This document shows, in pieces, positions 246-61,827 of a DNA stretch of 64,000 bases. Position 1 is the stretch's first letter. The number at the start of each line of letters is the position of its first letter. Below the pieces are notes generated by a model. It worked only from the letters and a program-made list of their open reading frames with translations, made no database searches and had not been told where the DNA came from. The stretch comes from Cladocopium goreaui (Eukaryota > Sar > Dinophyceae > Suessiales > Symbiodiniaceae). A program made the translations under genes and the position numbers. The DNA is taken from assembly GCA_947184155.2 (NCBI GenBank), contig CAMXCT020003768.1, positions 87,405 to 151,404 of the forward strand. The letters are read 5' to 3'.

Positions 246-1235
246 TGAAGATCAAGGAATTCTATCTGAATCAATGTACAGTTTGTGGGCCAGTTTGTGG
301 GCCAGTTTGTGGGTATGAAGGGCGGGAGGAGAGCTGACAGGCCATTCATGGACCATCTACCATGATTTGTTGGTGGTCTCCTGAGTTTTGTTGGTTGTAT
401 ATACTACATAGTACACAATCTCATAGTTTGTTGGCTAATCCGTAGGTAAACCATGAAAATTCCAGAGTTTGTTGGTGTTTCACCAGCCTTTTCATGGCTA
501 GAGCACCCAAAGCTGTCTCAGTCACTAAGCCCAGGGACTGTCGCCAAGCCTTTTCTTCCTTTTGCACCTGCAGGAAGGTCTCCTGAGGAATTCATCTTGG
601 GATTCCGCCACAAATCACAGCGACAACGACGCTGTGATCTCTTCATCATCAGCAAAATAGCTCATCAACATATCATATATCAACATTCTGATGATATCTC
701 CATGTGAACACCATTTGTATCCCAATGGATCACCGATTTAGTAATCTGATATAGCTCTTGGAGGATGGATGACCTATTTAGTTGGATGATCTACTGTTTC
801 TAAACATCGTGATTTTCCATAACTATTGTGAAATTACCTGAAGGCCTACCCCATCGACAAAAATGGGCCGCTGTCCAAGCTACCGGAGGGTACACAACTT
901 GGGGTGCTGGTCCACTTCTTAAGTGGCAAAAAAAACAAAAAAATAGCAAAAACAGGGGTTCTATCCCAAATTATGCTGGTGATTTACCTCGTTATACCAA
1001 ATGTTTGACCATTTATAACCCCAACTCCACCCCCTGGTATCCCATCGTCCTCATGTTTGTTGCTTCAATTTTTATTCATCACCATAAAATCCATTGAAAT
1101 CCCATGAAATTCTCTTAAATTCCCATAAAATCACATTATACCACTAAAGTGTCATTAATTTAATCCGATTCAATCCGTAAAAATATCATAAAATCCCCAT
1201 CTAAACCATCTAAACCTCATGGAAAAATCCATCTC

Positions 1236-1307
1236 CTGCAGCGTTTCTTGCTTCTCCGAAAGCTGATCCAGCTGCTGGTCGTGTTGACTCAAGCGCTGGT
1301 GTAGCTC
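1236..1307 (-). CDS. Exon, coiled-coil-like, 24 codons
   Basis: Acceptor TAG|GAG at 1309/1308. The 72 bases are exactly 24 codons, including ELHQRLSQHDQQLDQL, a glutamine- and leucine-rich helix. It ends CTGCAG followed by GAGATG, so an intron here would need a GA donor. Just upstream (about 1310-1402) the same frame reads NGGKIGYNEMRRMLGF, separated only by a TAG that forms the acceptor. That piece may be another exon behind a very short intron. Confidence 0.5.
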
Positions 1308-2051
1308 CTACCAGCACGGGGTTATGGGGCCGTGTCCGGGATTTGCCGGGAACCCCAGCATCCGGCGCATCTCGTTGTAACCAATTTTTCCGCCGTTGCT
1401 CCAAAAGGCAGAAATTTTAGTCGTTCTTGTACAGAAAAGTCTTTTTTGTAAAAAAAAAAACGCCGTTGTAAAAAATGTCCCTCCATGCGGTCGAGTAATG
1501 TCGCCGTTTGGTCGGGTCATGTCGCCGTTTCGTCGGGCAATGTCGTTGTTGCAAAAACATATATTTGGAATTGTTTGGAAATCTCAAAAAAAACGTTCCG
1601 CAAACAAAAGTCGTTCTTTCGGAAAACCTATTTTTCGAGCAAAAAGCAGAATTTTAGCACCATTTTGAAGATGCAGGTACACATCGGCTTGTGTGATATT
1701 CCATCTGGAAATTGGGATGTGTGCCAGTGTCAGTGTCAGAAGTCCTTCTCGGGCAGAACAATCGGTCTCCTGTCACTTTTCCTGATGAATCTAATCAAGA
1801 AAAATGCTGTTTATCGGATGTGCTTAATTAAGGAACATCCTAAAAATATCTTAGATATCCAAAGAAATCATTCATAATCATTCATAAATCTATCATAATC
1901 CAAAAAAAACCTTCATTGATTCATAAAATAGATTTATAATCTATGGGATGTTCATATCTAATATATGATATATGAATATATATATATATATGATAGATTT
2001 ATAATCTATGATCATTATATCTATCATTCATAAATATAGTAAATGATCCAT

Positions 2052-2157
2052 GGGGAAAGCCACATCTCCAATGGACTTCCCCAGCGAGTCACCGATAAAA
2101 AGAACGATGCTGCCATTGCTGGCTGGCTGGTTGACTTTTTGCTCCCGGTATTCGATT
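2052..2157 (-). CDS. Exon, unknown protein
   Basis: Minus frame IEYREQKVNQPASNGS followed by IVLFIGDSLGKSIGDVAF, open across a GC-rich patch in AT-rich DNA. The hydrophobic strand plus GDSLGKS looks like the core of a folded domain, but I cannot assign one; it is not a clean P-loop. Splice borders are not resolved. Confidence 0.45.
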
Positions 2158-2667
2158 ACCCACGGGTAATTTCACATAGATTTGGAACATGGAACCGTAT
2201 TATATATATATACTATATTATATATATATATGAACTGATAATGATGAATTGCCTATTGAAATGATAAAATTTCCGTATAGCCATATGTCAGTAGGCTATA
2301 CACAAGTTAATGTGCTACACCCAATGCCATAACCTATCCCAGTAACCAATCATAAAGCGGGTTATAAACATCATCCCAAATCGTTGAGGGTACACCCAAT
2401 GCCATAAGCCCCTTATTTTGGGGATTGAACTATCGCATCTATCCTTTCATTCTCGTATAATTTGCCATACTTTCCCAGATGATTAGCTTCATAGTAACAC
2501 CCAATCACATCAAAAAACATTTTGTCACACAAACAAAAGAACGCAAAACTCCAACTTGGAAAAGCAAAAATAATAGATTTGGGTATGGGTCAATACCTAT
2601 AGATACATACATTTAGTGGGTTATTCACATCCATTTTAACCGAGCTATGACTTGGGGTTCGGCCGTC

Positions 2668-2774
2668 CTGCGAGACATCCTCGATGACACGCACCAAGCG
2701 CGCCTGCGCGTCGCTGACGCCCTTCACATCACGGTGTAAGGAAAAGATGCTGCTGCTCACCTCACCGGCACAAC
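2668..2774 (-). CDS. Exon, helical, unknown protein
   Basis: Acceptor CCCAG|GTT (AG at 2776/2775) opens a 107-base frame. It contains AGEVSSSIFSLHRDVKG and AQARLVRVIEDVSQD with strong preference for G or C at third positions. The end at TCGCAG|GACGG implies a GA donor, unless the exon runs a few codons further. No family is recognised. Confidence 0.55.
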
Positions 2775-3055
2775 CTGGGCCCCTGAAAAAAAAAGCGGTG
2801 ACTTTTTAATGAAAACAATGGACATTTTTAATGGAAACGTGGGACCCTGGAAACATTGAACAAAAAAGAAGTGGTGACTTTTTCATGGAAACAATGGAAA
2901 ATGATGGAAAATGGGGATATCACTGGTAACTGTATGTTTTTGATGTGGATATTAGTGCAACTATACTCTGATTTCAGGATGAAACTCAAAAAAAAAATCT
3001 GGTTTCTGGATGGCTTGACATACAACTGACACTTGGAACCAGCCATGAGGGAATT

Positions 3056-3151
3056 CATGGCAAAAACCAACGATTTCGGCGTTGGTTGACGGTCATCCTT
3101 TTGCCGATGAAGTTCAGCCCCAAAGATCGCGATTTTGCAAAACGATGGTCC
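3056..3151 (-). CDS. Possible exon
   Basis: AG|G acceptor at 3153/3152. The minus frame includes GPSFCKIAIFGAELHRQK and stays open to about 3000. The other two minus frames are also largely open, so the frame choice is weak. Confidence 0.3.
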
Positions 3152-3329
3152 CTTGGAATTGGCGGTGCCTCATTTTTCAAACACCAATGGATAAACGGAT
3201 AAACCATGAGTGAGTCAGCTTTGTAGGATCTGAAAATCCAGGATTTAGCCACCTACAAAAAGATATGTAGAGCTTCTATTGGTCAACTAGTGATAAGCCA
3301 TTGGATGTTGGCAATTCTCAAGCCTGATC

Positions 3330-3485
3330 TCATTGAAACCCTGGAAAATTCGGCACCTCACTCTGATCCGAAACCTCTGATCTCAGACCCAGTGGCCGAG
3401 GCCGAATTGATACTGCTTTGAGTAACATCCTGAACGCTCAGGCTCCTTCAGCGACGATCCAAGAGGACGTGCAGAATCGTGCAGA
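3330..3485. other. Coding-like patch, strand unclear
   Basis: GC-richer stretch. The plus frame gives ALSNILNAQAPSATIQEDVQ, preceded in another plus frame by an open segment, as if frameshifted. No clear splice sites. It could be a decayed gene fragment. Confidence 0.25.
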
Positions 3486-3763
3486 ACTCAAAAATGCGGG
3501 TGGGTTTGTAGGTGTCAAATTCATGAAAAACCATCACAACCAGCTGTTTGGAAAAAAAAAATGTGGTAGTCCACCATAGTCAACCATCAAATTTGTGGGT
3601 GAAAAATCATCACTGATTAAAAGTAGCAAGCAACCAGCAAAACAAGGGAAAGTCCAGCTGGAATGGCCAGTCAAGACGGTCACAGTCTGAAAGAGGATGA
3701 AAGAATTGCACGCCAACGAAACATGTTGATGAAGGTTGAATTGTCATGGTCAATCTTGGATAC

Positions 3764-10549: not shown

Positions 10550-11029
10550 CTGGTATTGATAGTCTCCACCTCAAGGAAACCATGGGAAAATCATGCGATA
10601 AACTCATGGAAAAATCATGGAACATATGGGAAATCATGGGAACATATGGGGAAAATCATAGGAAATACATAGGATACTATAGGAAATCCCATGAAAAATG
10701 GAGGGACTTTAGCTGGGACAACTACAATTTTTTATGCTTTAACAGTACTTTTAATGGGAAATCAGATGAAAAATATGGGAAAAGATAGGAAATCCGCATG
10801 AGAAATGGTGGTTCAAAGCTGAAAAACTATGGGAAAATCATGGAAAATCATAGCAAATCCCCATGAAACATGGAGGTACATATTAGTTGGTAAAACCATA
10901 TGAAAATATAGGAAAATGGTATCATCAAACATCGCCAGTTCCGGAAATCCAGAAAAAAAAATCTGTGGCTTTGAATGGGGAGATCATCAAATTGATGTAC
11001 CCCCATTTCCAAATGTGTTCAATGGATTA

Positions 11030-11348: not shown

Positions 11349-11452
11349 TACCCTCTGGTAAACTAACATAACTATGGAAAATCACCATTTTTAATGGGTA
11401 AATCCACTATAAATCACCATTTTCAATAGCTATGTTAGTTTACCAGAGGGTA
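11349..11452. mobile_element. Family A inverted-repeat element
   Basis: TACCCTCTGGTAAACTAACA at the left and its exact inverse at the right. On minus, the ORF upstream (GKYGLFEVGLPS) runs for 60 codons into the terminus and after excision ends EGKAI-stop. Confidence 0.9.
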
Positions 11453-18196: not shown

Positions 18197-21100
18197 GTTG
18201 GATAGTCAAACTCTAGATAGAATATCCTCTAGATCCATGAAAAGACTGAATTTTTAAAGGATGCTTGGAATTAAGCATGTATTTGTGGTGCTCCCTGCCC
18301 CTTCCTCCACATCTACCCATCCAAAGTTCATTCTTGGAGCTGTTTGAAAGCAAGCTTTAAAAGGAAAATGGCATTAAAAAAAAGGAATCCGAGATCTCAC
18401 CATCCAAAGTTGAAATTGCAGGTTTTGAAAAGAAACCACAAAAGGAAAATGGGATGAGAAAAGAAATAATCCACGATCTTACCATTCAAAGTTCAATCTT
18501 GCAGGTTTTTGAAAAGAAAGCTGCGAAAGGAAAAGGAGATGAGAAAAGTACAGAAAAGTAGGAATCCAAGATCGACCATCCAAAGTTCATTTGTGCTAGT
18601 GCTGTGCTAGGACAGTTGGGCAAAACTATAGATAGAATATCCTCTAGAACCATGAAAAGACTGAATTTTTAAAGGATGCTTGGAGTTGAGCATGTATTTG
18701 TGGTGTTCCCTGCCCCTTCCTCCACATCTACCCATCCAAAGTTCATTCTTGGAGCTGTTTGAAAGCAAGCTTTAAAAGGAAAATGGCATTAAAAAAGTAG
18801 GAATCCAAGATCTTACCATCCAAAGTTGAAATTGCAGGTTTTTGAAAAGAAGCAACAAAAGGAAAATGGGATGAGAAAAGAAGAAATCCACGATCTTACC
18901 ATTCAAAGTTCAGTCTTGCAGGTTTTTGAATAGAAAGCCGTGAAAGGAAAAGGAGATGAGAAAAGTATAGAAAAGTAGGAATCCAAGATCGACCATCCAA
19001 AGTTCATTTGTGCTAGTACTGTGCTAGGACAGTTGGGCAAAACTATAGATAGAATATCCTCTAGAACCATGAAAAGACTGAATTTTTAAAGGATGTTTGG
19101 GATTAAGCATGTATTTGTGGTGCTCCCTGCCCCTTCCTCCACATCTACCCATCCAAAGTTCATTCTTGGAGCTGTTTGAAAGCAACTTTAAAAGGAAAAT
19201 GGCATTAAAAAAGTAGGAATCCAAGATCTTACCATCCAAAGTTGAAATTGCAGGTTTTTGAAAAGAAGCAACAAAAGGAAAATGGGATGAGAAAAGAAGG
19301 AATCCACGATCTTACCATTTAAAGTTCAGTCTTGCAGGTTTTTGAATAGAAAGCTGTGAAAGGAAAAGGAGATGAGAAAAGTATAGAAAAGTAGGAATCC
19401 AAGATCGACCATCCAAAGTTCATTTGTGCTAGTGCTGTGCTAGGACAGTTGGGCAAAACTATAGATAGAATATCCTCTAGAACCATGAAAAGACTGAATT
19501 TTTAAAGGATGCTTGGAGTTGAGCATGTATTTGTGGTGTTCCCTGCCCCTTCCTCCACATCTACCCATCCAAAGTTCATTCTTGGAGCTGTTTGAAAGCA
19601 AGCTTTAAAAGGAAAATGGCATTAAAAAAATAGGAATCCGAGATCTCACCATCCAAAGTTGAAATTGCAGGTTTTTGAAAAGAAACCACAAAAGGAAAAT
19701 GGGATGAGAGAAGAAATCTCCACGATCTTACCATTCAAAGTTCAATCTTGCAGGTTTTTGAAAAGAAAGCTGCGAAAGGAAAAGGAGATGAGAAAAGTAT
19801 AGAAAAGTAGGAATCCAAGATCGACCATCCAAAGTTCATTTTTGCTAGTGCTGTGCTAGGACAGTTGGGCAAAACTATAGATAGAATATCCTCTAGAACC
19901 ATGAAAAGACTGAATTTTTAAAGGATGCTTGGAGTTGAGCATGTATTTGTGGTGTTCCCTGCCCCTTCCTCCACATCTACCCATCCAAAGTTCATTCTTG
20001 GAGCTGTTTGAAAGCAAACTTTAAAAGGAAAATGGCATTAAAAAAGTAGGAATCCAAGATCTTACCATCCAAAGTTGAAATTGCAGGTTTTTGAAAAGAA
20101 GCAACAAAAGGAAAATGGGATGAGAAAAGAAGGAATCCACGATCTTACCATTCAAAGTTCAGTCTTGCAGGTTTTTGAATAGAAAGCCGTGAAAGGAAAA
20201 GGAGATGAGAAAAGTATAGAAAAGTAGGAATCCAAGATCGACCATCCAAAGTTCATTTGTGCTAGTACTGTGCTAGGACAGTTGGGCAAAACTATAGATA
20301 GAATATCCTCTAGAACCATGAAAAGACTGAATTTTTAAAGGATGTTTGGGATTAAGCATGTATTTGTGGTGCTCCCTGCCCCTTCCTCCACATCTACCCA
20401 TCCAAAGTTCATTCTTGGAGCTGTTTGAAAGCAAGCTTTAAAAGGAAAATGGCATCTAAAAAGTAGGAATCCAAGATCTTACCATCCAAAGTTGAAATTG
20501 CAGGTTTTTGAAAAGAAACAACAAAAAGAAAATGGGATGAGAAAAGAAGGAATCCACGATCTTACCATTCAAAGTTCAGTCTTGCAGGTTTTTGAATAGA
20601 AAGCTGTGAAAGGAAAAGGAGATGAGAAAAATATAGAAAGTAGGAATCCAAGATCGACCATCCAAAGTTCATTTGTGCTAGTACTGTGCTAGGACAGTTG
20701 GGCAAAACTATAGATAGAATATCCTCTAGAACCATGAAAAGACTGAATTGTTTAAGGATGTTTGGGATTAAGCATGTATTTGTGGTGCTCCCTGCCCCTT
20801 CCTCCACATCTACCCATCCAAAGTTCATTCTTGGAGCTGTTTGAAAGCAAACTTTAAAAGGAAAATGGCATTAAAAAGTAGGAATCCAAGATCTTACCAT
20901 CCAAAGTTGAAATTGCAGGTTTTTGAAAAGAAGCAACGAAAGGAAAATGGGATGAGAAAAGAAGAAATCCACGATCTTACCATTCAAAGTTCAGTCTTGC
21001 AGGTTTTTGAATAGAAAGCTGTGAAAAGAAAAGGAGACGAGAAAAGTATAGAAAAGTAGGAATCCAAGATCGACCATCCAAAGTTCATTTTTGCTAGTGC

Positions 21101-23580
21101 TGTGCTAGGACAGTTGGGCAAAACTATAGATAGAATATCCTCTAGAACCATGAAAAGACTGAATTTTTAAAGGATGCTTGGAGTTGAGCATGTATTTGTG
21201 GTGTTCCCTGCCCCTTCCTCCACATCTACCCATCCAAAGTTCATTCTTGGAGCTGTTTGAAAGCAAGCTTTAAAAGGAAAATGGCATTAAAAAAGTAGGA
21301 ATCCAGGATCTTACCATCCAAAGTTGAAATTGCAGGTTTTTGAAAAGAAGCAACAAAAGGAAAATGGGATGAGAAAAGAAGAAATCCACGATCTTACCAT
21401 TCAAAGTTCAGTCTTGCAGGTTTTTGAATAGAAAGCCGTGAAAGGAAAAGGAGATGAGAAAAGTACAGAAAAGTAGGAATCCAAGATCGACCATCCAAAG
21501 TTCATTTTGTGCTAGTACTGTGCTAGGACAGTTGGGCAAAACTATAGATAGAATATCCTCTAGAACCATGAAAAGACTGAATTTTTAAAGGATGTTTGGG
21601 ATTAAGCATGTATTTGTGGTGCTCCCTGCCCCTTCCTCCACATCTACCCATCCAAAGTTCATTCTTGGAGCTGTTTGAAAGCAAGCTTTAAAAGGAAAAT
21701 GGCATCTAAAAAGTAGGAATCCAAGATCTTACCATCCAAAGTTGAAATTGCAGGTTTTTGAAAAGAAGCAACAAAAGGAAAATGGGATGAGAAAAGAAGG
21801 AATCCACGATCTTACCATTCAAAGTTCAGTCTTGCAGGTTTTTGAATAGAAAGCTGTGAAAGGAAAAGGAGATGAGAAAAGTATAGAAAGTAGGAATCCA
21901 AGATCGACCATCCAAAGTTCATTTTTGCTAGTGCTGTGCTAGGACAGTTGGGCAAAACTATAGATAGAATATCCTCTAGAACCATGAAAAGACTGAATTT
22001 TTAAAGGATGCTTGGAGTTGAGCATGTATTTGTGGTGTTCCCTGCCCCTTCCTCCACATCTACCCATCCAAAGTTCATTCTTGGAGCTGTTTGAAAGCAA
22101 GCTTTAAAAGGAAAATGGCATTAAAAAAGTAGGAATCCAAGATCTTACCATCCAAAGTTGAAATTGCAGGTTTTTGAAAAGAAACCACAAAAGGAAAATG
22201 GGATGAGAAAAGAAATAATCCACGATCTTACCATTCAAAGTTCAGTCTTGCAGGTTTTTGAATAGAAAGCTGTGAAAAGAAAAGGAGACGAGAAAAGTAT
22301 AGAAAAGTAGGAACCCAAGATCGACCATCCAAAGTTCATTTTTGCTAGTGCTGTGCTAGGACAGTTGGGCAAAACTATAGATAGAATATCCTCTAGAACC
22401 ATGAAAAGACTGAATTTTTAAAGGATGCTTGGAGTTGAGCATGTATTTGTGGTGTTCCCTGCCCCTTCCTCCACATCTACCCATCCAAAGTTCATTCTTG
22501 GAGCTGTTTGAAAGCAAGCTTTAAAAGGAAAATGGCATTAAAAAAGTAGGAATCCAAGATCTTACCATCCAAAGTTGAAATTGCAGGTTTTTGAAAAGAA
22601 GCAACAAAAGGAAAATGGGATGAGAAAAGAAGAAATCCACGATCTTACCATTCAAAGTTCAGTCTTGCAGGTTTTTGAATAGAAAGCCGTGAAAGGAAAA
22701 GGAGATGAGAAAAGTACAGAAAAGTAGGAATCCAAGATCGACCATCCAAAGTTCATTTGTGCTAGTACTGTGCTAGGACAGTTGGGCAAAACTATAGATA
22801 GAATATCCTCTAGAACCATGAAAAGACTGAATTTTTAAAGGATGTTTGGGATTAAGATTAAGCATGTATTTGTGGTGCTCCCTGCCCCTTCCTCCACATC
22901 TACCCATCCAAAGTTCATTCTTGGAGCTGTTTGAAAGCAAACTTTAAAAGGAAAATGGCATCTAAAAAGTAGGAATCCAAGATCTTACCATCCAAAGTTG
23001 AAATTGCAGGTTTTTGAAAAGAAGCAACAAAAGGAAAATGGGATGAGAAAAGAAGAATCCACGATCTTACCATTCAAAGTTCAGTCTTGCAGGTTTTTGA
23101 ATAGAAAGCCGTGAAAGGAAAAGGAGATGAGAAAAGTACAGAAAAGTAGGAATCCAAGATCGACCATCCAAAGTTCATTTTGTGCTAGTACTGTGCTAGG
23201 ACAGTTGGGCAAAACTATAGATAGAATATCCTCTAGAACCATGAAAAGACTGAGTTTTTAAAGGATGTTTGGGATTAAGCATGTATTTGTGGTGCTCCCT
23301 GCCCCTTCCTCCACATCTACCCATCCAAAGTTCATTCTTGGAGCTGTTTGAAAGCAAACTTTAAAAGGAAAATGGCATCTAAAAAGTAGGAATCCAAGAT
23401 CTTACCATCCAAAGTTGAAATTGCAGGTTTTTGAAAAGAAGCAACAAAAAGGAAAATGGGATGAGAAAAGAAGGAATCCACGATCTTACCATTCAAAGTT
23501 CAGTCTTGCAGGTTTTTGAATAGAAAGCCGTGAAAGGAAAAGGAGATGAGAAAAGTATAGAAAAGTAGGAATCCAAGATC
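18197..23580. repeat. Satellite array, about 416-bp unit, 13 copies
   Basis: The marker GTTGGGCAAAACTATAGATA recurs at 18615, 19032, 19448, 19864, 20281, 20697, 21113, 21531, 21947, 22364, 22781 and 23204, spacings 416-418 except one of 423. Each unit holds three or four related segments of about 85-100 bp, each beginning ACCATCCAAAGTT or ACCATTCAAAGTT. Two linked variant types alternate (TTGGAGTTGAGC against TTGGGATTAAGC). Short open frames inside are repeat artefacts. Confidence 0.97.
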
Positions 23581-24055
23581 GAGCATCCAAAGTTCATAAT
23601 TGAAGGTTTTTGAATGGAAAACTGTGTTTGAAAGGAAGAGTGCATGAGAAAAGTAGGAATAGCTGATCTTACCATCCAAAGTTCATTCTCGCAGCTGTTT
23701 GAAAAGGAAACTTGGAAGGAAAATGGAAGGAAACAAATTGGAATGCACGATCTTACCATCCAAAGTTCATAATTGAAGGTTTTTGAATGGAAAACTGTGA
23801 CAGGAAAAGGACATGAGAAAAGCAGGAATCAAACTTTGAAAGGAACATGGCATGAGAAAAGCTGGAATCCACGATCTTACCATCCAAAGTTCACAATTAC
23901 AGATTTTTGAAGGGAAAAGTGTGAAAGGAAAAGGAAATGAAAAAAGTAGGAATCTACGTCTACGATCTTACCATCCAAAGTTCATTTTTTGCAGCTGTTT
24001 GAAAAGGAAAATTTGAAAGAAAAAAATAAATTGGAAGGTTTTGAAAAGGAAAGGA
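23581..24055. repeat. Diverged monomers flanking the satellite
   Basis: Five or so units of 80-100 bp start CATCCAAAGTTCAT and carry GGTTTTTGAATGGAAAACTG or GCTGTTTGAAAAGGAAA. They resemble the segments inside the 416-bp unit but are not in the higher-order arrangement. Confidence 0.85.
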
Positions 24056-27064: not shown

Positions 27065-27857
27065 CTGCGGGATGTTTTTCCAATTTCTCCAATGGCTGTG
27101 TAATATGGATATGACCATTTAATACATCCAAATACCAATGTCAATAATGTTGCTTCGTAAAGTTCGTGCCAGGTCTTTGGTTCTTCATATTCATATCTAA
27201 TCTAATTGCCAATTTGGGTCATATTGCCTAATATCAATTACCGGGAAAGCTAATTGTCAATATTGAGGTTGAAAATGGATATTAGTCAACATGACCAGTC
27301 AATATAGTTTCCCTTGCACTTGTCAATATATTGAAAAATCAAAGCATCGCAAAAAAAAAAATGTCAAATAAATATCAAAATAGACGTCAGTACAACTGTG
27401 TTATCAAATAGATATGCGTAAAATCAGCCAACGTTGAGCGGTGTGTTGACAAACCTTACGTGTTCTGCATCTTTTGGGGGTTAAGATATGTACTAAATAA
27501 GTCCCCAAAACGAAACCTGTGATTCTCAACAACATGTTGATGATTTACCTATCAAAAATGGTGATGTTCCAGTTCACAAACTGTTACATTAGCAGTGCCA
27601 TGTAGCTGGTGCTTTGTCAGAATTGCTTTTGGAATCCTTTGCTGAAGTTGTCAAGGATGATATGAAGATATTCAATTCGAAGCATGTTCTCTTCTCATAG
27701 ACCATCAATTGATTGGGTCCTCAAATACCCACCTCAAATACCCACCTCAAAAAATGTTGGCAGTCCTGGCAGGGTCTATGTTTAGTGACCTGCAAAAATG
27801 GGAATAGTTTGACAAGCTAATTAAATAGATATGCCATGGCAGTCCAAGATCATTGTC

Positions 27858-30325: not shown

Positions 30326-30364
30326 CTTTCGGAATTCGTCGCTCTTCCCCACGTCATGGATGAC
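30326..30364 (-). CDS. Exon of 13 codons next to an A remnant
   Basis: CCGTCAG|GTCATC acceptor (30366/30365) and CGAAAG|GTGACG donor enclose VIHDVGKSDEFRK. The intron upstream is largely a truncated A element whose intact right end (30455-30463) could serve as donor for an upstream exon reading VGYTVLYRLPS. Confidence 0.45.
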
Positions 30365-30374
30365 CTGACGGAGA

Positions 30375-30463
30375 TGCTATTGAACATGGCCATAGAAATA
30401 GTGGAATTACCCATGAAAAATGGTGATTTTCCATAGTTATATATAAACGTTTACCAGAGGGTA
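30375..30463. mobile_element. Family A element, left end lost
   Basis: Starts inside the family at GCTATTGAACATGGCC and keeps the right end AACGTTTACCAGAGGGTA. Confidence 0.75.
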
Positions 30464-30509: not shown

Positions 30510-31331
30510 AATAATCCCTTCCCCCTAGTAAACTAAACGTCCAAAAAAAAAACTAAAAACTAGGGTCCATCTTTTTTCTTTCGGAAAATTTCAGATTGGC
30601 CAATTTGACTTTTAATTGATCCCCTTTAGAAAACAATTTAAAAATGAAGCTACCATTTGTGGGTTTTGCCCCCTAATAAGAAAAACTAGTTCACCCCGGT
30701 GTGTTTATTATTAGGGTCCGTCCGATTTCTTTTGTTTTTTTAAGATTAAGGCTTTTAATTTCTTATTAGGGTCCGCTTCGAAAACTATTTTTTGGCAATA
30801 TTTTTATTGCGTTATATAAGGAAATTTAATTGATTTTGCAATCGAACAAACTAGTTTTTATCATTAAGGTTTAAATTTTATTAATAGGGTCCGCTTCGAA
30901 ATCCAATTTTTGGCAATATTTTAATCGCGTTATATAAAGAAATTTAATTGATGTTGAAATCGAACAAACTAGTTTTTATTATGAAGGTTCTAATTTTATT
31001 AATAGGGTCCGCTTCGAAATCCAATTTTTGGCAATATTTTAATCGCGTTATATAAGAAATTTTCATTGATTTTGAAATCGAACAAACTAGTTTTTATGAT
31101 TAAGGTTCTAAATTTATTAATAGGGTCCGCTTCGAAATCCAATTCTTGGCAATATTTTAATCGCGTTATATAAGAAATTTTAATTGATTTTGAAATCGAA
31201 CAAACTAGTTTTTATCATTAAGGTTTAATTTTATTAATAGGGTTCCCTAATAATAAATACCCCCCTAATACTAAAAACTACCTGAGGTGTTTATTATTTG
31301 GGGGGGTTAGTATTAGGGGGAAGGGATTATT
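30510..31331. mobile_element. 822-bp TIR element with internal tandem repeats
   Basis: AATAATCCCTTCCCCCTAGT at the left mirrors TTAGTATTAGGGGGAAGG onward at the right (31307-31331). Subterminal sequences repeat the CCCCTAATA motif in both directions. No ORF of note, so non-autonomous. Confidence 0.75.
30769..31240. repeat. 118-bp tandem repeat inside the TIR element
   Basis: GGGTCCGCTTCGAAA recurs at about 30769, 30887, 31005 and 31123, with a broken fifth copy at 31240. Each unit contains TTTTTGGCAATATTTTAATC and CGAACAAACTAGTTTTTAT. Confidence 0.9.
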
Positions 31332-35071: not shown

Positions 35072-35181
35072 TGCCCTTTGGTAAACTAACAGTTTGCGAA
35101 CTGGAAAATGGCCACTCAGTTCGTTGATTTACCCATTAAAAATGGTGATTTTCCATAGATATGTTAGTTTACCAGAGGGTA
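35072..35181. mobile_element. Family A inverted-repeat element
   Basis: TGCCCTTTGGTAAACTAACA at the left, TGTTAGTTTACCAGAGGGTA at the right. On minus the acceptor-side CAG is CAA, so splicing out the exact element would be impaired. Confidence 0.9.
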
Positions 35182-35330: not shown

Positions 35331-35684
35331 AAGGTTGATAGCTGGGAAGATCATGGGAAAATCATGGTTAAATGTAGGTATCTATGTGTGGGAACATCAT
35401 TTAACATAGTTAATGGGTTTCCGTGTTCCAGCCATGTTTCATTACAAAAGGATAGTGGTGTCAACTTTTGTACCCAAAAAAAGCTCATGTCACCCATTTC
35501 TCCATCTCACGTCGAAGCGAAAATCAGTGACTGAATTCTCCCATTGATCAATCGTGGAAACTCCTAAGTCATGGGGGTACCCCCAGTCATCCATTTTTGC
35601 TTGGGATTTTCAATTATAACTACCATCTAGCTATGTGGGCCCATTGATCAATGGGCAAAAAAAAATAAAAAAAAACACGAGCCT

Positions 35685-41529: not shown

Positions 41530-41649
41530 TTGCAGCGTTTCGTGAAATCTTTGACGCTCAAAGAGAAACCTCGAGCCTCGTCCAAAACCGAGGCCCATCT
41601 GGGGGTCAAGTCATTGGGGGGGCCCAATGACTGGATGGTCATCCCACCA
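41530..41649 (-). CDS. Exon downstream of the satellite-filled intron
   Basis: Starts at the element-derived acceptor TTTACCAAG|TGG. The frame, in phase with the exon at 44030-44135, reads GGMTIQSLGPPNDLTPRW then ASVLDEARGFSLSVKDFTK. It may end at the donor CTCGAG|GTTTCT near 41570 or at a stop near 41527. A plus frame (FREIFDAQRETSSLVQNRG) is a rival. Confidence 0.5.
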
Positions 41650-41702
41650 CTTGGTAAACCAACATCCCGCGAATTTATATGGCTTAATATCATTTCTTCG
41701 TT

Positions 41703-44011
41703 GATTTACCCATGAAAAATGATGATGTTCCATGATTTACCCATGAAAAATGGTGATGTTCCATGATTTACCCATGAAAAATGGTGATGTTCCATGATTT
41801 ACCCATGAAAAATGGTGATGTTCCATGATTTACCCATGAAAAATGGTGATGTTCCATGATTTACCCATGAAAAATGGTGATGTTCCATGATTTACCCATG
41901 AAAAATGGTGATGTTCCATGATTTACCCATGAAAAATGGTGATGTTCCATGATTTACCCATGAAAAATGGTGATGTTCCATGATTTACCCATGAAAAATG
42001 GTGATGTTCCATGATTTACCCATGAAAAATGGTGATGTTCCATGATTTACCCATGAAAAATGGTGATGTTCCATGATTTACCCATGAAAAATGGTGATGT
42101 TCCATGATTTACCCATGAAAAATGGTGATGTTCCATGATTTACCCATGAAAAATGGTGATGTTCCATGATTTACCCATGAAAAATGGTGATGTTCCATGA
42201 TTTACCCATGAAAAATGGTGATGTTCCATGATTTACCCATGAAAAATGGTGATGTTCCATGATTTACCATGAAAATGGTGATTTTGTGTCAGATTTACCC
42301 ATGAAAAATGGTGATGTTTCATGATTACCTGAAAAATTGGAATGTTTCCATGATTTACCTGAAAACTGGGATGTTCCAGGATTTACCCATGAAAAATGGT
42401 GAGTTCCATGATTTACCCATGAAAAATGGTGATGTTCCATGATTTACCCATGAAAAATGGTGATGTTCCATGATTTACCCATGAAAAATGGTGATGTTCC
42501 ATGATTTACCCATGAAAAATGGTGATGTTCCATGATTTACCCATGAAAAATGGTGATGTTCCATGATTTACCCATGAAAAATGGTGATGTTCCATGATTT
42601 ACCCATGAAAAATGGTGATGTTCCATGATTTACCCATGAAAAATGGTGATGTTCCATGATTTACCCATGAAAAATGGTGATGTTCCGTGATTTACCCATG
42701 AAAAATGGTGATGTTCCATGATTTACCCATGAAAAATGGTGATGTTCCATGATTTACCCATGAAAAATGGTGATGTTCCATGCCCATGAAAAATGGTGAT
42801 GTTCCATGATTTGCCCATGAAAAATGGTGATGTTCCATGATTTGCCCATGAAAAATGGTGATGTTCCATGATTTACCCATGAAAAATGGTGATGTTCCAT
42901 GATTTACCCATGAAAAATGGTGATGTTCCATGATTTACCCATGAAAAATGGTGATGTTCCATGATTTACCCATGAAAAATGGTGATGTTCCATGATTTAC
43001 CCATGAAAAATGGTGATGTTCCATGATTTACCCATGAAAAATGGTGATGTTCCATGATTTACCCATGAAAAATGGTGATGTTCCATGATTTACCCATGAA
43101 AAATGGTGATGTTCCATGATTTACCCATGAAAAATGGTGATGTTCCATGCCCATGAAAAATGGTGATGTTCCATGATTTGCCCATGAAAAATGGTGATGT
43201 TCCATGATTTGCCCATGAAAAATGGTGATGTTCCATGATTTACCCATGAAAAATGGTGATGTTCCATGATTTACCCATGAAAAATGGTGATGTTCCATGA
43301 TTTACCCATGAAAAATGGTGATGTTCCATGATTTACCCATGAAAAATGGTGATGTTCCATGATTTACCCATGAAAAATGGTGATGTTCCATGATTTACCC
43401 ATGAAAAATGGTGATGTTCCATGATTTACCCATGAAAAATGGTGATGTTCCATGATTTACCCATGAAAAATGGTGATGTTCCATGATTTACCCATGAAAA
43501 ATGGTGATGTTCCATGATTTACCCATGAAAAATGGTGATGTTCCATGATTTACCCATGAAAAATGGTGATGTTCCATGATTTACCCATGAAAAATGGTGA
43601 TGTTCCATGATTTACCCATGAAAAATGGTGATGTTCCATGATTTACCCATGAAAAATGGTGATGTTCCATGATTTACCCATGAAAAATGGTGATGTTCCA
43701 TGATTTACCCATGAAAAATGGTGATGTTCCATGATTTACCCATGAAAAATGGTGATGTTCCATGATTTACCCATGAAAAATGGTGATGTTCCATGATTTA
43801 CCCATGAAAAATGGTGATGTTCCATGATTTACCCATGAAAAATGGTGATGTTCCATGATTTACCCATGAAAAATGGTGATGTTCCATGATTTACCCATGA
43901 AAAATGGTGATGTTCCATGATTTACCCATGAAAAATGGTGATGTTCCATGATTTACCCATGAAAAATGGTGATGTTCCATGATTTACCCATGAAAAATGA
44001 TGATTTTCCAT
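41703..44011. repeat. 31-bp satellite, about 75 copies, from an A core
   Basis: Consensus unit GATTTACCCATGAAAAATGG followed by TGATGTTCCAT. The family A core is GATTTACCCATTAAAAATGG followed by TGATTTTCCAT. The first and last units are closest to the parental form. A degraded patch sits at 42262-42400. Minus frames such as MEHHHFSWVNHGTS are repeat artefacts. Confidence 0.97.
42692..43298. repeat. 367-bp higher-order duplication within the 31-bp array
   Basis: A unit lacking five bases (TTCCATGCCCATG) followed by two GATTTG variants occurs at about 42777 and again at about 43144. 367 equals twelve 31-bp units minus the five-base deletion. Confidence 0.85.
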
Positions 44012-44029
44012 GGTTTTTTGTATGTTTAC

Positions 44030-44135
44030 CAGGCCGGGTAAGCCATCATCATCCCGTCCCCACTGAGATCATCGCTGGTGCGCCGAGTGAAACACCCTCG
44101 AGTGGGCAGAAAATGGCGACTGCGGGCGGGGCGTG
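44030..44135 (-). CDS. Exon upstream of the satellite-filled intron
   Basis: Minus frame LPTRGCFTRRTSDDLSGDG then MMMAYPA, ending GGCCTG|GTAAAC. Joined to 41649 it continues CGGMTIQSL in phase. Another minus frame (GVSLGAPAMISVGTG) and a plus frame (EIIAGAPSETPSSGQKM) are also open. Confidence 0.45.
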
Positions 44136-48485: not shown

Positions 48486-48965
48486 ATATGGGACAAAGAA
48501 TGTGCAGAAGAAAGTTAGAAAGAATGTCAGAAAGAATGTCAGAAGATATGCCAGAAGATATGCCAGAGAGAATGCCAAATAGAATGCCAGATAGAATGCC
48601 AGATAGAATGCCAGAAGATATGTCAGAATATATTCCAGAAGATATGCCAGATAGAATGCCAGATAGAATGCCAGAAGATATGTCAGAATATATGCCAGAA
48701 GATATGCCAGATAGAATGCCAGATAGAATGCCAGAAGATATGTCAGATAGAATGCCAGAAGATATGCCAGATAGAATGCCAGAAGATTTGCCAGATAGAA
48801 TGCCAGAAGAAATGCCAGAAGATATGCCAGATAGAATGCCAAATAGAATGTCAGAAGATATGTCAGATAGAATGCCAGAAGATATGCCAGAAGATATGCC
48901 AGATAGAATGCCAAATAGAATGTCAGAAGATATGTCAGATAGAATGCCAGAAGATTTGCCAGTAA
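48486..48965. repeat. 12/15/24-bp repeat encoding Met-Pro-Glu-Asp if read on plus
   Basis: Units ATGCCAGAAGAT and ATGCCAGATAGA alternate for 480 bp. All units are multiples of three, so the plus frame DRMPEDMPDRMPED is long, but start and flanks are simple repeats and there is no splice context. Confidence 0.9.
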
Positions 48966-49019
48966 GAAAATGTATAAATGTCATGGTGGGGATCACACGA
49001 AGTAAAGTAATTTTTATGT

Positions 49020-50012: not shown

Positions 50013-51800
50013 CTACAGATATCTGAACTCGTCCTTGACTGCAGTGCTCACGCCGCCATTCTCCGGATCGCCCCAAGTCACAACACGTCCATCTGCTAAA
50101 ACAGCAGCGAAAGCGCAGCGGGTAGCATGGATTTGCCGAACGTGCCTCAGCTGATCCTCGACTCTGGTGCTGTCGCCGCCATACCCAGCATCGCCCCATG
50201 TCACAACGCTGCCATCCGCCAAAATTACAGCAAAGGCTCTCTGTGTGGCATAAATGTGCTGAACATTCCTGAGCTGGTCCCTGACTCTGGCGGAGTTTGA
50301 TATAGGCTGAGCCCTGGCTCTGGCGGGGCTTCGTCTCTGCTGAGCCCTGACTCTGGCAGGGCTTAAAGCCCTGGATCTAATAGGCATCGCGCCCAAAGCA
50401 CTGACTCGAACAGGGTTCGGCATAGGCACGACTCCAACACCGTGCACCGCGCGTAAAGCCCCGACTCTCGCGGGGTTCGGCGCCAAGGGACGCTGGGCTA
50501 CTGCAGGTTGCGTAGCAGACTCGCCAAGGCTGCCTCTGACGGTGTCACCACCACAGATAGGATTGCCCCAGGTCACAACACTGCCATCTGCCAAAATTGC
50601 AGCAAAGGCACTCATTGTTGCACAAATCTGCTGAACATTTCTGAGTTGGCTCCTGACCGCAGTGCTGTCGCCACCATTGTCTCCATGGCCCCACGTCACA
50701 ACACTGCCATCTGCCAAGATGGCAGCAAAGGCTCTGTCTGTGGCATGAATGTTCTGAACATCCCTGAGATCATCCGCGACTGCGGTGCTGTCACCGCCAT
50801 CTTGCGGACTGCCCCATGTCACAAGGCTTCCATCTGCCAAAATTGCAGCAAAAGCGTACTGTGCGGCATGGATCTGCTGAACATTCCTGAGCTGATCCGC
50901 GACTCTGGTGCTGTCGCCGCCATACCCAGCATCGCCCCACGTCACAACGTTGCCATCCGCCAAAACCGCAGCGAAAGCACAACGCGTGGCATGAATATTC
51001 CGAACATTCCTGAGCTGGTCCCTGACCCTGGTGCTGTCTCCGCCATAGTCAGGATCGCCCCAAGTCACAACGCTGCCATCTGCCAAAATTGCAGCGAAGG
51101 CGTAGAATGTGGAATGAATATTCCGAACATCCCTGAGCTGATCTTTGACCCTGGTGCTGCTGCCACCATAGCCAGGATTGCCCCACGTCACAACGCTGCC
51201 ATCTGCCAAGACAGCAGCAAAAGCCTCGGATGTCGCATGAATCTGCTGAACATCTTTGAGCTGATCCCTGACTCTGGTGCTGTCACCGCCATAGCCAGGA
51301 AATCCCCACGTCACAACGCTACCATCTGCCAAAATTGCAGCAAAAGCCTTCTTTGTGCCTTGAATTAGCTGCACATTTCTGAGCTGATCTTGGACCGCTG
51401 CTGTGTGACCTCCCTGTTCTCCTTTGCCCCATGCGACAATCCTGGCCCCTCCGGGGCACCACAAAGCCACAGCACCATCGGTTGCAGCTACTTTGGGCTG
51501 CTGTGCAATAGCAGTAACGCTGTCTCCACTTTGAAGCCCGGAACTTTGAAGAGATTCTGCTGGATCCAAGAGACGACCATCGAGAGCAACAAGCCTCAGG
51601 AAAGCTTGCCGCAACGACAGCTGGGCCGCCAATTTCAAATCCAAAACGCTGCCATCCACTGGAAGCGATAGCGATGCACAGCGGCCGCTGGGCAACGACA
51701 CATTCAGCTGCAGTGTGTTGACCGACTCCTCAGTATCACTTCCTGACAGCACCACAACCTCCACAACATCATCGGTCAATCTGCGCCTTTTCCTTGCCAT
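50013..51800 (-). CDS. Ubiquitin-like plus RCC1-like repeat protein, 595 residues
   Basis: ATG at 51800 in a strong context (GCGCCATGGCA); the frame opens 11 codons further up but without ATG. A basic start (ARKRRRLTDD) is followed by a ubiquitin-like fold at about residues 28-100: LQLNVSLPSG, then LRLVALDGRLLDP, then LQSSGLQSGDSV. Repeats of exactly 41 residues follow (about 119-420): seven full units with AFAAILADGSVVTWG and GGDSTRVRDQLRNVQQIHAT, after one degenerate unit. An 85-residue Arg/Ala/Pro linker (420-505) interrupts them, then two more units to the C terminus. The repeats match the RCC1/HERC propeller pattern and ten units could make one or more blades of a beta-propeller. Such proteins bind partners; no HECT domain is present, so ligase activity is not suggested. 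No intron. An antisense ORF of 286 residues is a shadow. Confidence 0.93.
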   Translation of the reverse strand: MARKRRRLTDDVVEVVVLSGSDTEESVNTLQLNVSLPSGRCASLSLPVDGSVLDLKLAAQLSLRQAFLRLVALDGRLLDPAESLQSSGLQSGDSVTAIAQQPKVAATDGAVALWCPGGARIVAWGKGEQGGHTAAVQDQLRNVQLIQGTKKAFAAILADGSVVTWGFPGYGGDSTRVRDQLKDVQQIHATSEAFAAVLADGSVVTWGNPGYGGSSTRVKDQLRDVRNIHSTFYAFAAILADGSVVTWGDPDYGGDSTRVRDQLRNVRNIHATRCAFAAVLADGNVVTWGDAGYGGDSTRVADQLRNVQQIHAAQYAFAAILADGSLVTWGSPQDGGDSTAVADDLRDVQNIHATDRAFAAILADGSVVTWGHGDNGGDSTAVRSQLRNVQQICATMSAFAAILADGSVVTWGNPICGGDTVRGSLGESATQPAVAQRPLAPNPARVGALRAVHGVGVVPMPNPVRVSALGAMPIRSRALSPARVRAQQRRSPARARAQPISNSARVRDQLRNVQHIYATQRAFAVILADGSVVTWGDAGYGGDSTRVEDQLRHVRQIHATRCAFAAVLADGRVVTWGDPENGGVSTAVKDEFRYL

Positions 51801-52077
51801 GGCGCCGTGAGTTTGGCCATTGTTCAGTCGCACAGCTAGATGTGTTTTTGGATTCGCAACAAGCCATTTACAACTTGATCTGTGAAGGAAGGATGAAGGA
51901 GAATCATGGGAAAAAAAAAGAACTACACCGAGCCTTTCGTCATCAACTAACGATATTCACTGCAGACCTTCAATGCGCCAAAGTATTTGTGAGTTTTCAT
52001 GGAGCCAACCGTCTAACCTCTTGTAATTTACAAAAAGCTGCGTTAAGGAAGGCACATGTAGGAGATTCTAGGAGTTA

Positions 52078-61503: not shown

Positions 61504-61705
61504 CTATTCAAACACACGAACCTTATCATTTAGTTCGGGTTTTCCCAGCTAGCCATGTCTGATGTTCCTGTATGTCCCATGAATTTCCTACATTTTCCCA
61601 TGATTTTCCACTTTTTCCCATGATTTTCCCATGGTTTTCCCATATTTTCCCATTTTTTCCCATGACTTTCCAATGATTCCCCCATTTTGCCCTGCGATGC
61701 TCCCA

Positions 61706-61827
61706 TGATTTTCCCACGGCGCACCGGTGCTCACGTCCCGTGACAGCCATTCCCTGCTCGGTCGGTCGCTCCACAAATCCTCTCCGATGTAGTCCGGGCT
61801 GCCACGCCTGGCGTTGATCATTAGCAT
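61706..61827 (-). CDS. Exon with acceptor supplied by a truncated A element
   Basis: Starts at TTTCACCAG|ATG (AG at 61829/61828), where the element remnant 61828-61895 begins. The frame reads MLMINARRGSPDYIGEDLW then SDRPSREWLSRDVSTGAPW with about three quarters G or C at third positions. It ends near CCGTGG|GAAAAT. The stretch downstream (61560-61700) is a decayed CATGATTTTCCCA repeat. Confidence 0.55.

Follow-up and report, generated by a model that had tools for sequence, protein, structure and literature searches.

Structure of the tandem array

The locus described here raises the question of how some 75 copies of a 31-bp unit came to lie between the two ends of a short repeated element, family A, and whether the resulting block is a spliced intron. 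It is situated in a 64,000-nucleotide stretch of Cladocopium goreaui DNA, referred to below as the window (C3768:87405-151404 in a host assembly of 1.166 Gb and 6,202 contigs). The original prediction had described it as an introner of roughly 110 bp that grew twenty-fold by tandem amplification while keeping its splice sites. The features of the locus are as follows.

44012-44041, minus strand: left end, a GGCC-form TIR (TTACCCGGCCTGGTAAAC) with ATACAAAAAACC; shuffle test and genome matches
41703-44011, minus strand: array in which ATGGAACATCACCATTTTTCATGGGTAAATC is repeated head to tail about 75 times; TRF, unit counts and match to the A core
42767-43221, minus strand: variant block of three units (one of 26 bp and two GGGC units), present twice at a spacing of 367 bp; unit starts
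42245-42425, minus strand: six consecutive irregular units; unit listing
41650-41702, minus strand: right half and inner TIR (AACGAAG...GGTTTACCAAG), diverged; local and positional tests and likeness to locus L019

TRF called the array at 41702-44016 with a period of 31, a match of 97% and 75.2 copies, a figure that rests on the assembly, and 60 of the 74 anchor-to-anchor units were identical. Read on the minus strand, the element runs from the left end (44041-44012) through the approximately 75 ATGGAACATCACCATTTTTCATGGGTAAATC units to AACGAAG...GGTTTACCAAG, and stops at 41650. The predicted arrangement of about 75 units between two family A ends was confirmed, with the right end being diverged. 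The units of the variant block start at 43221/43190/43159 and again at 42854/42823/42792, a pattern of ccd...ccd, and represent a block duplication inside the array. The irregular units at 42245-42425 are either old sequence or assembly noise. The first (44009-43981) and last (41733-41703) units of the array share ATCATC, while the inner units have the family form CACC. The first edge unit also retains AAAATC, as in family A, and the edge units grade from A-like to array-like. A stretch of three units folded no better than its shuffles (z +1.1), leaving slippage driven by hairpins unsupported.

Other tandem repeats are present in the window. An array of a 417-bp unit, itself consisting of 82-84-bp subrepeats, occupies 18208-23597 (12.9 copies, 96% match), and a 118-bp unit is repeated at 30737-31243 (4.3 copies, 90% match). 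Repeats of 12 bp (AAGAATGCCAG) are located at 48496-48968, where they lie in open frames that translate as MPEDMPDRMPE.

Family A, an abundant near-palindromic MITE

Apart from the array, the family A model matched 26 window loci at E<1e-3, amounting to 2,721 bp or 4.4%. Fifteen window copies were TIR-paired, with lengths of 103-120 bp and with TACCCTCTGGTAAAC and its reverse complement at the two ends (TIRs TACCCTCTGGTAAAC...GTTTACCAGAGGGTA). In total, 28 TIR matches were found in the window against 0.13 expected. An autonomous relative of the family would be expected to have TACCCTCTGGT or TTACCCGGCCTGGT ends. TA was present at both ends in 14 of the 23 listed copies, degraded ones included, which is compatible both with a TA duplication and with a TA that is terminal in the element. 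Most copies were matched on both strands due to their nearly palindromic sequence, and three copies that were folded gave z values of -9.5, -15.0 and -4.4. The family is short, non-coding as judged by its frames, and high in copy number, with 26 loci in the 64 kb of the window and 16 in 60 kb elsewhere. The 60 kb came from 15 stretches at round coordinates on contigs with array matches rather than from a strict random sample, and their density would correspond to some 300,000 copies in the genome. Family A is thus a near-palindromic MITE with an element of about 110 bp. The copies in the window that are most informative for the array are the following.

11349-11452, plus strand: complete typical A MITE of 104 bp with a TA at each end and a core that differs from the unit at 2/31; single hairpin, z -9.5
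27538-27596, minus strand: partial A element with the GGAACATC change of the array; sequence match
30363-30463, minus strand: A element with one core copy (2/31) and the TTTTTC change of the array; sequence match
35072-35181, minus strand: single-copy A element, core 2/31, with an AACGAAC border as on the right side of the array; sequence match

We presume that family A resembles the Stowaway MITEs (Tc1/mariner; TA target). Both are short, AT-rich and hairpin-forming with TA at both ends, although the Stowaway TIR differs from that of family A. The unit and the TIR gave no match in viral_contigs, the near-full TIR gave none in genome_contigs, and the paired TIR gave none in either set. An 18-mer of the unit matched six contigs, in whose surroundings the 18-mer was not repeated.

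The array unit corresponds to the family A core

The unit proved to be a contiguous segment of the A core, with 29 of its 31 bases equal in linear register, in agreement with the predicted derivation. The two mismatches were counted against the A copies at 11374 (plus strand), 30404 and 35126 (both minus strand). The ten best matches to the unit elsewhere in the window (at most five mismatches) all lie within A loci, whereas shuffling the rest of the window 30 times gave nothing closer than eight mismatches. The unit departs from the A consensus in two places, and each of these changes is found singly in another A copy (27542 and 30404, both minus strand). The 14-mers within the unit matched mostly A copies, while those spanning the unit junction matched no A copy but a small number of ATGGGAAAATC tracts scattered outside the family. 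Dispersed ATGGGAAAATCATGG tracts that resemble the unit junction are located outside A at 10582-10843, 35342-35367 and 61598-61717. The breakpoints of the 31-bp duplication, read directly from the sequence, have only the dinucleotide CA in common.

We examined the two ends of the target element separately. The left end (44041-44012) reads TTACCCGGCCTGGTAAACATACAAAAAACC on the minus strand; none of 1,000 shuffles matched A as well, and it is identical in 31 of 31 positions to an end in L047. Its terminus TTACCCGGCCTGGTAAAC is a second TIR form common to other loci in the genome, and the TIR form TTACCCGGCCTGG was found with at most one mismatch in 11 of the 39 array loci fetched from the host genome. 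In a free local test the right end scored weakly (135 of 1,000 shuffles were as good), whereas a positional test with 12 A right halves gave significance (2/2000; mean score 1/2000). Its nearest relative is L019, with 84% identity over 25 bp (E 0.039). We take it to be a diverged A end. The word GGGATGACCATCCA next to it has ten one-mismatch counterparts in other fetched loci, but the match goes no further and this candidate was dropped.

Concerning the outer borders, GTAAAC at 44029 and TTTACCAAG ending at 41650 on the minus strand, 2380 bp in all, are present as predicted. The element, however, extends past the outer border, as the TTACCCGGCCTG preceding GTAAAC is TIR. Taking into account that the left TIR form recurs in other array loci, the GCTTACCCGGCCTG before GTAAAC belongs to the transposon and not to an exon.

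Examination of the predicted intron

Removal of the predicted intron joins MMMAYPA to CGGMTIQSL, and the joined frame is indeed open, with 79 aa from stop to stop. Such a length is at chance level: 33% of 1,835 GT..AG joins at similar spacing reached 82 aa, and 37% of 3,000 shorter joins reached 79 aa. The end of the supposed exon, ...YPA, is TIR sequence. The joined peptide had no match in Pfam or PDB up to E 10. In the host genome it matched its own two halves alone at E<2, and three further places at E 2.2 contained stops. Among the best candidates, with very common words skipped, the upstream 301 bp matched elsewhere only at query positions 69-177, around an AT-rich tract. The flanks of the target are GC-rich (63% and 55%). 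With an RCC1-like ORF of the window as reference, the codon score of the open joined frame was -0.045, which falls inside the 5-95% range observed for open frames elsewhere (-0.71 to 0.50) and is lower than that of a closed frame (-0.017); as exon evidence the GC-rich flanks thus point neither way. The reference ORF (50013-51956, minus strand) is an open frame of 647 aa with RCC1-like repeats (PF13540, E 1.7e-28; PF25390, E 5.6e-29), is coded by 123-bp tandem DNA repeats, and has weak relatives in Synechococcus phage (27% over 36%).

The family as a whole was examined in the same manner. In 31 A elements from the window and the fetched loci, joined frames averaged 69.8 aa versus 70.2 aa in controls (P 0.51). 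Of 49 strand-tests, 44 gave an addition of 13 nt on splicing, three of 15 nt and two of 17 nt, with 13 of the 62 possible strand-tests having been dropped as they had no GT or CAG. Excision of an element would therefore mostly not keep the frame. A test confined to the window with another choice of AG gave 82.4 aa versus 77.0 aa in controls (P 0.26), with 11 nt added in 26 of 29 cases, 13 in two and 9 in one. Similarity also did not end near the splice boundary: on the left side of the target the TIR reaches 11-12 nt past the GT, and in ordinary A copies the corresponding figures are 9 and 4-6 nt. Twelve eukaryote-like loci obtained in a CCT-family search (L088-L099, several from one gene) were scanned for A elements, which were present in L092, L093 and L096. 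The L092 element stops 64 bp ahead of the matched conserved CCT exon stretch, with in-frame stops in between, and is not at the intron border. A search for the spliced-leader relic pattern gave no result, and no tRNAs or Rfam families were reported. The tests are indirect, and give the intron claim for the target no support: neither its identity as an introner nor the retention of splice sites was upheld. MITE termini with a chance GT and AG can mimic introner splice sites when the frame is open by chance.

Related arrays in the host genome

With the array and its ends as query, at least 43 places were found in the host assembly including the target locus itself, and the 42 others are covered by 39 fetched stretches (L-numbered, as are the CCT loci). 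The fetched arrays range from 72 bp to 2.7 kb, which is minisatellite scale. Using TIR words of both forms with at most two mismatches, located within 100 bp of the edge and in the right orientation, an A TIR was found at an edge in 20 of the 39 loci (nine at both edges and 11 at one) and at neither edge in 19. In 3,000 random placements in the window, TIRs occurred at both edges in 0.27% and at one in 7.7%. As the query carried its own ends, the 25 loci whose match began inside the array were set apart, some of which are near copies (L043/L044; L036/L037/L039/L041). By TIR words, three of these 25 had both edges, three had one and 19 had none; with a half-model of A (E<0.01), the numbers were zero, seven and 18, respectively (control, 0.02% both and 4.9% one). 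The original prediction had regarded an ordinary satellite unconnected to A termini as evidence against it, and this was partly encountered. L015, the closest sibling array with 42 copies that are 90% identical, has no recognizable A end, so that the target unit also forms arrays without MITE ends, and 18-19 of the 25 array-only loci likewise have none. The target itself corresponds to a MITE-borne satellite, its unit being homologous to a MITE segment and its array flanked by MITE ends, of which the right one is diverged.

The unit junctions differ among the arrays. The target shares GGGTAAATC/ATGGA (the slash marks the junction) with L050 and L051, whereas GGGTAAA/CTATGG is found in the A-bordered L029, L031 and L045, and in a 33-bp form in L019. 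Other A-bordered units are of 21 bp (L035, L053), 41 bp (L022) and a different 31 bp (L033, L046, L048), and the 64-bp period called by TRF in L024 consists of two 32-bp halves. L050 is a three-copy form of the target that shares its unit boundary and the AACGAA border, contains an AAC unit and has a TIR at each end. The A-bordered arrays of the genome range from two or three to tens of copies. The single-copy A elements, L050 and the A-bordered arrays with other junctions support the claim that 31 bp of the A core were amplified with A ends on either side, and the variety of junctions suggests that the core was tandemised repeatedly and independently. Tandemisation is nevertheless uncommon per A copy. 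In the window and the 60 kb from 15 other stretches, 25 TIR-paired elements had lengths of 103-140 bp, and a tandem core was absent in the five that were inspected, including the three longest. In L020 (G000:C5815:883800-888500), positions 975-3720 are occupied by a 10-bp array of GGTAAATCAT with 272 copies, a word that is the unit junction of the target array.

Origin of the array

We consider, with a probability of roughly 0.78, that the target arose through in-place tandem amplification of the core of a family A MITE. A 31-bp stretch of the left A core would have been duplicated head to tail at breakpoints sharing CA, and then multiplied to about 75 copies, probably through slippage and unequal exchange including the 367-bp block duplication, with both A ends staying outside the growing array. 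Arrays without ends would have lost them later. The ends, the correspondence of the unit to a segment of the A core, the duplicated block and the other A-bordered arrays with other junctions are observed directly, whereas the order of events, the slippage and unequal exchange, and the later loss of ends are inferred. Amplification in place is favoured by the unit-to-core match, which is unique to A loci, by the presence of both A ends, and by the 14-mers, which match A copies inside the unit and not across its junction. It is also favoured by the edge TIRs of 20 of the 39 other array loci (nine with both), above controls, and by the low-copy A-bordered arrays along with L050, which has the AAC change, the AACGAA border and the same boundary. 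Evidence pointing in the other direction includes the right end, which is weak when taken alone, the junction words resembling ATGGGAAAATC tracts outside A, and the ATCATC of the edge units as opposed to the CACC of the inner units. The lack of an A end in 18-19 of the 25 array-only loci, including L015, counts against birth in place everywhere.

These end-less loci can also be explained if the A core incorporated, or came from, a pre-existing satellite akin to the ATGG/AAATC tracts, making the array older than its ends. Such a capture is in accordance with the unit-junction words in non-A tracts and with 10-bp arrays without clear A ends such as that of L020, and has been proposed for miDNA4 according to a review (PMC12628747). 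We nevertheless find it unlikely, as the core is single in many A copies of the window, the junctions differ among A-bordered arrays, low-copy forms exist, and the edge units grade from A-like to array-like. It is less probable still that the copy number is partly a product of the assembly. Six irregular units stand in a row within a uniform array, and uninterrupted full-length Cpn60 frames of a bacterial kind are found on contigs C1 (7.4 Mb) and C2380 (0.64 Mb) of the assembly (G000), which probably come from bacteria. On the other hand, both edges of the array pass into different sequence inside a single contig, and similarly built arrays are present at other loci. Least probable of all, and very unlikely, is a spliced minus-strand intron from GT 44029 to AG 41650 that grew twenty-fold with its splice sites retained. 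Although GT and AG, the open frame of 79 aa and the GC-rich flanks are all present, and TIR-bearing introners have been reported in dinoflagellates (PMC9860276; PMC11453091), the supposed exon end is TIR, the frame is at chance level without a Pfam, PDB or genome relative, and the frames of the 31 A elements equal the null with 13 nt mostly added (11 nt with the earlier AG choice). Moreover, the sole A element near a conserved CCT exon, in L092, is inside an intron and off its border.

The array probably has no selected function, and no splicing role emerged from the frame, frame-arithmetic, Pfam, PDB, genome-relative and CCT tests. A broader and more tentative possibility, which we hold at somewhat below even odds, is that one abundant MITE family acts as a recurrent minisatellite nursery, in which a core of 10-11-bp words is tandemised again and again, independently and with varying junctions, to give units of about 10, 21, 31-33 and 41 bp, and the arrays shed their ends to become free ATGG/AAATC satellites. 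If so, all forms from a single copy to a free array would be found side by side.

Comparison with known systems

Among the titles and abstract openings covered, which were part of the literature matches with subscription journals mostly outside, no report was found of an introner or a dinoflagellate MITE with a tandem array within it. Introners of dinoflagellates are described as short TIR elements of high copy number with GT/AG near their ends (PMC9860276; Roy et al. 2023 via PMC11453091), and one family in Aureococcus is reported to add 12 nt (PMC9860276). Those of Symbiodinium have 4-bp TSDs and are spliced at the element edge (PMC9860276), whereas family A has TA ends and GT/AG within its TIRs, and showed no link to coding exons here.

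Tandem repeats borne by MITEs are known from other organisms. Xstir and miDNA4 of Xenopus (PMC12628747) contain tandem repeats in or from the MITE interior, from one to many copies and with microhomology proposed as the mechanism, as in our case. They differ in sequence and host, and capture of a pre-existing repeat is reported for miDNA4, while here several junctions are found in one MITE family. In Drosophila virilis, the internal tandem repeats of the inverted-repeat transposon Tetris (TIR-220; PMC4079207) also occur in longer arrays, some without transposon parts, as observed here; those repeats are of 220 bp and lie in the long TIRs of a foldback element, whereas the 31-bp units derive from the A core, in an element about 110 bp long. 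The BrickBuilt MITE of Porphyromonas gingivalis (PMC4596501) carries a minisatellite of 23-nt units between inverted-repeat ends and is similar in this respect, but it is bacterial and its repeat is regular, while most A copies have one core. MITE-borne tandem repeats and satellites are thus already known, and the target is a well-staged example of them. How a satellite begins is usually reconstructed long afterwards. In this genome, a single MITE family displays single-copy, three-copy, tens-of-copies and end-less forms with readable junctions, making the steps, the breakpoints and perhaps the rates measurable.
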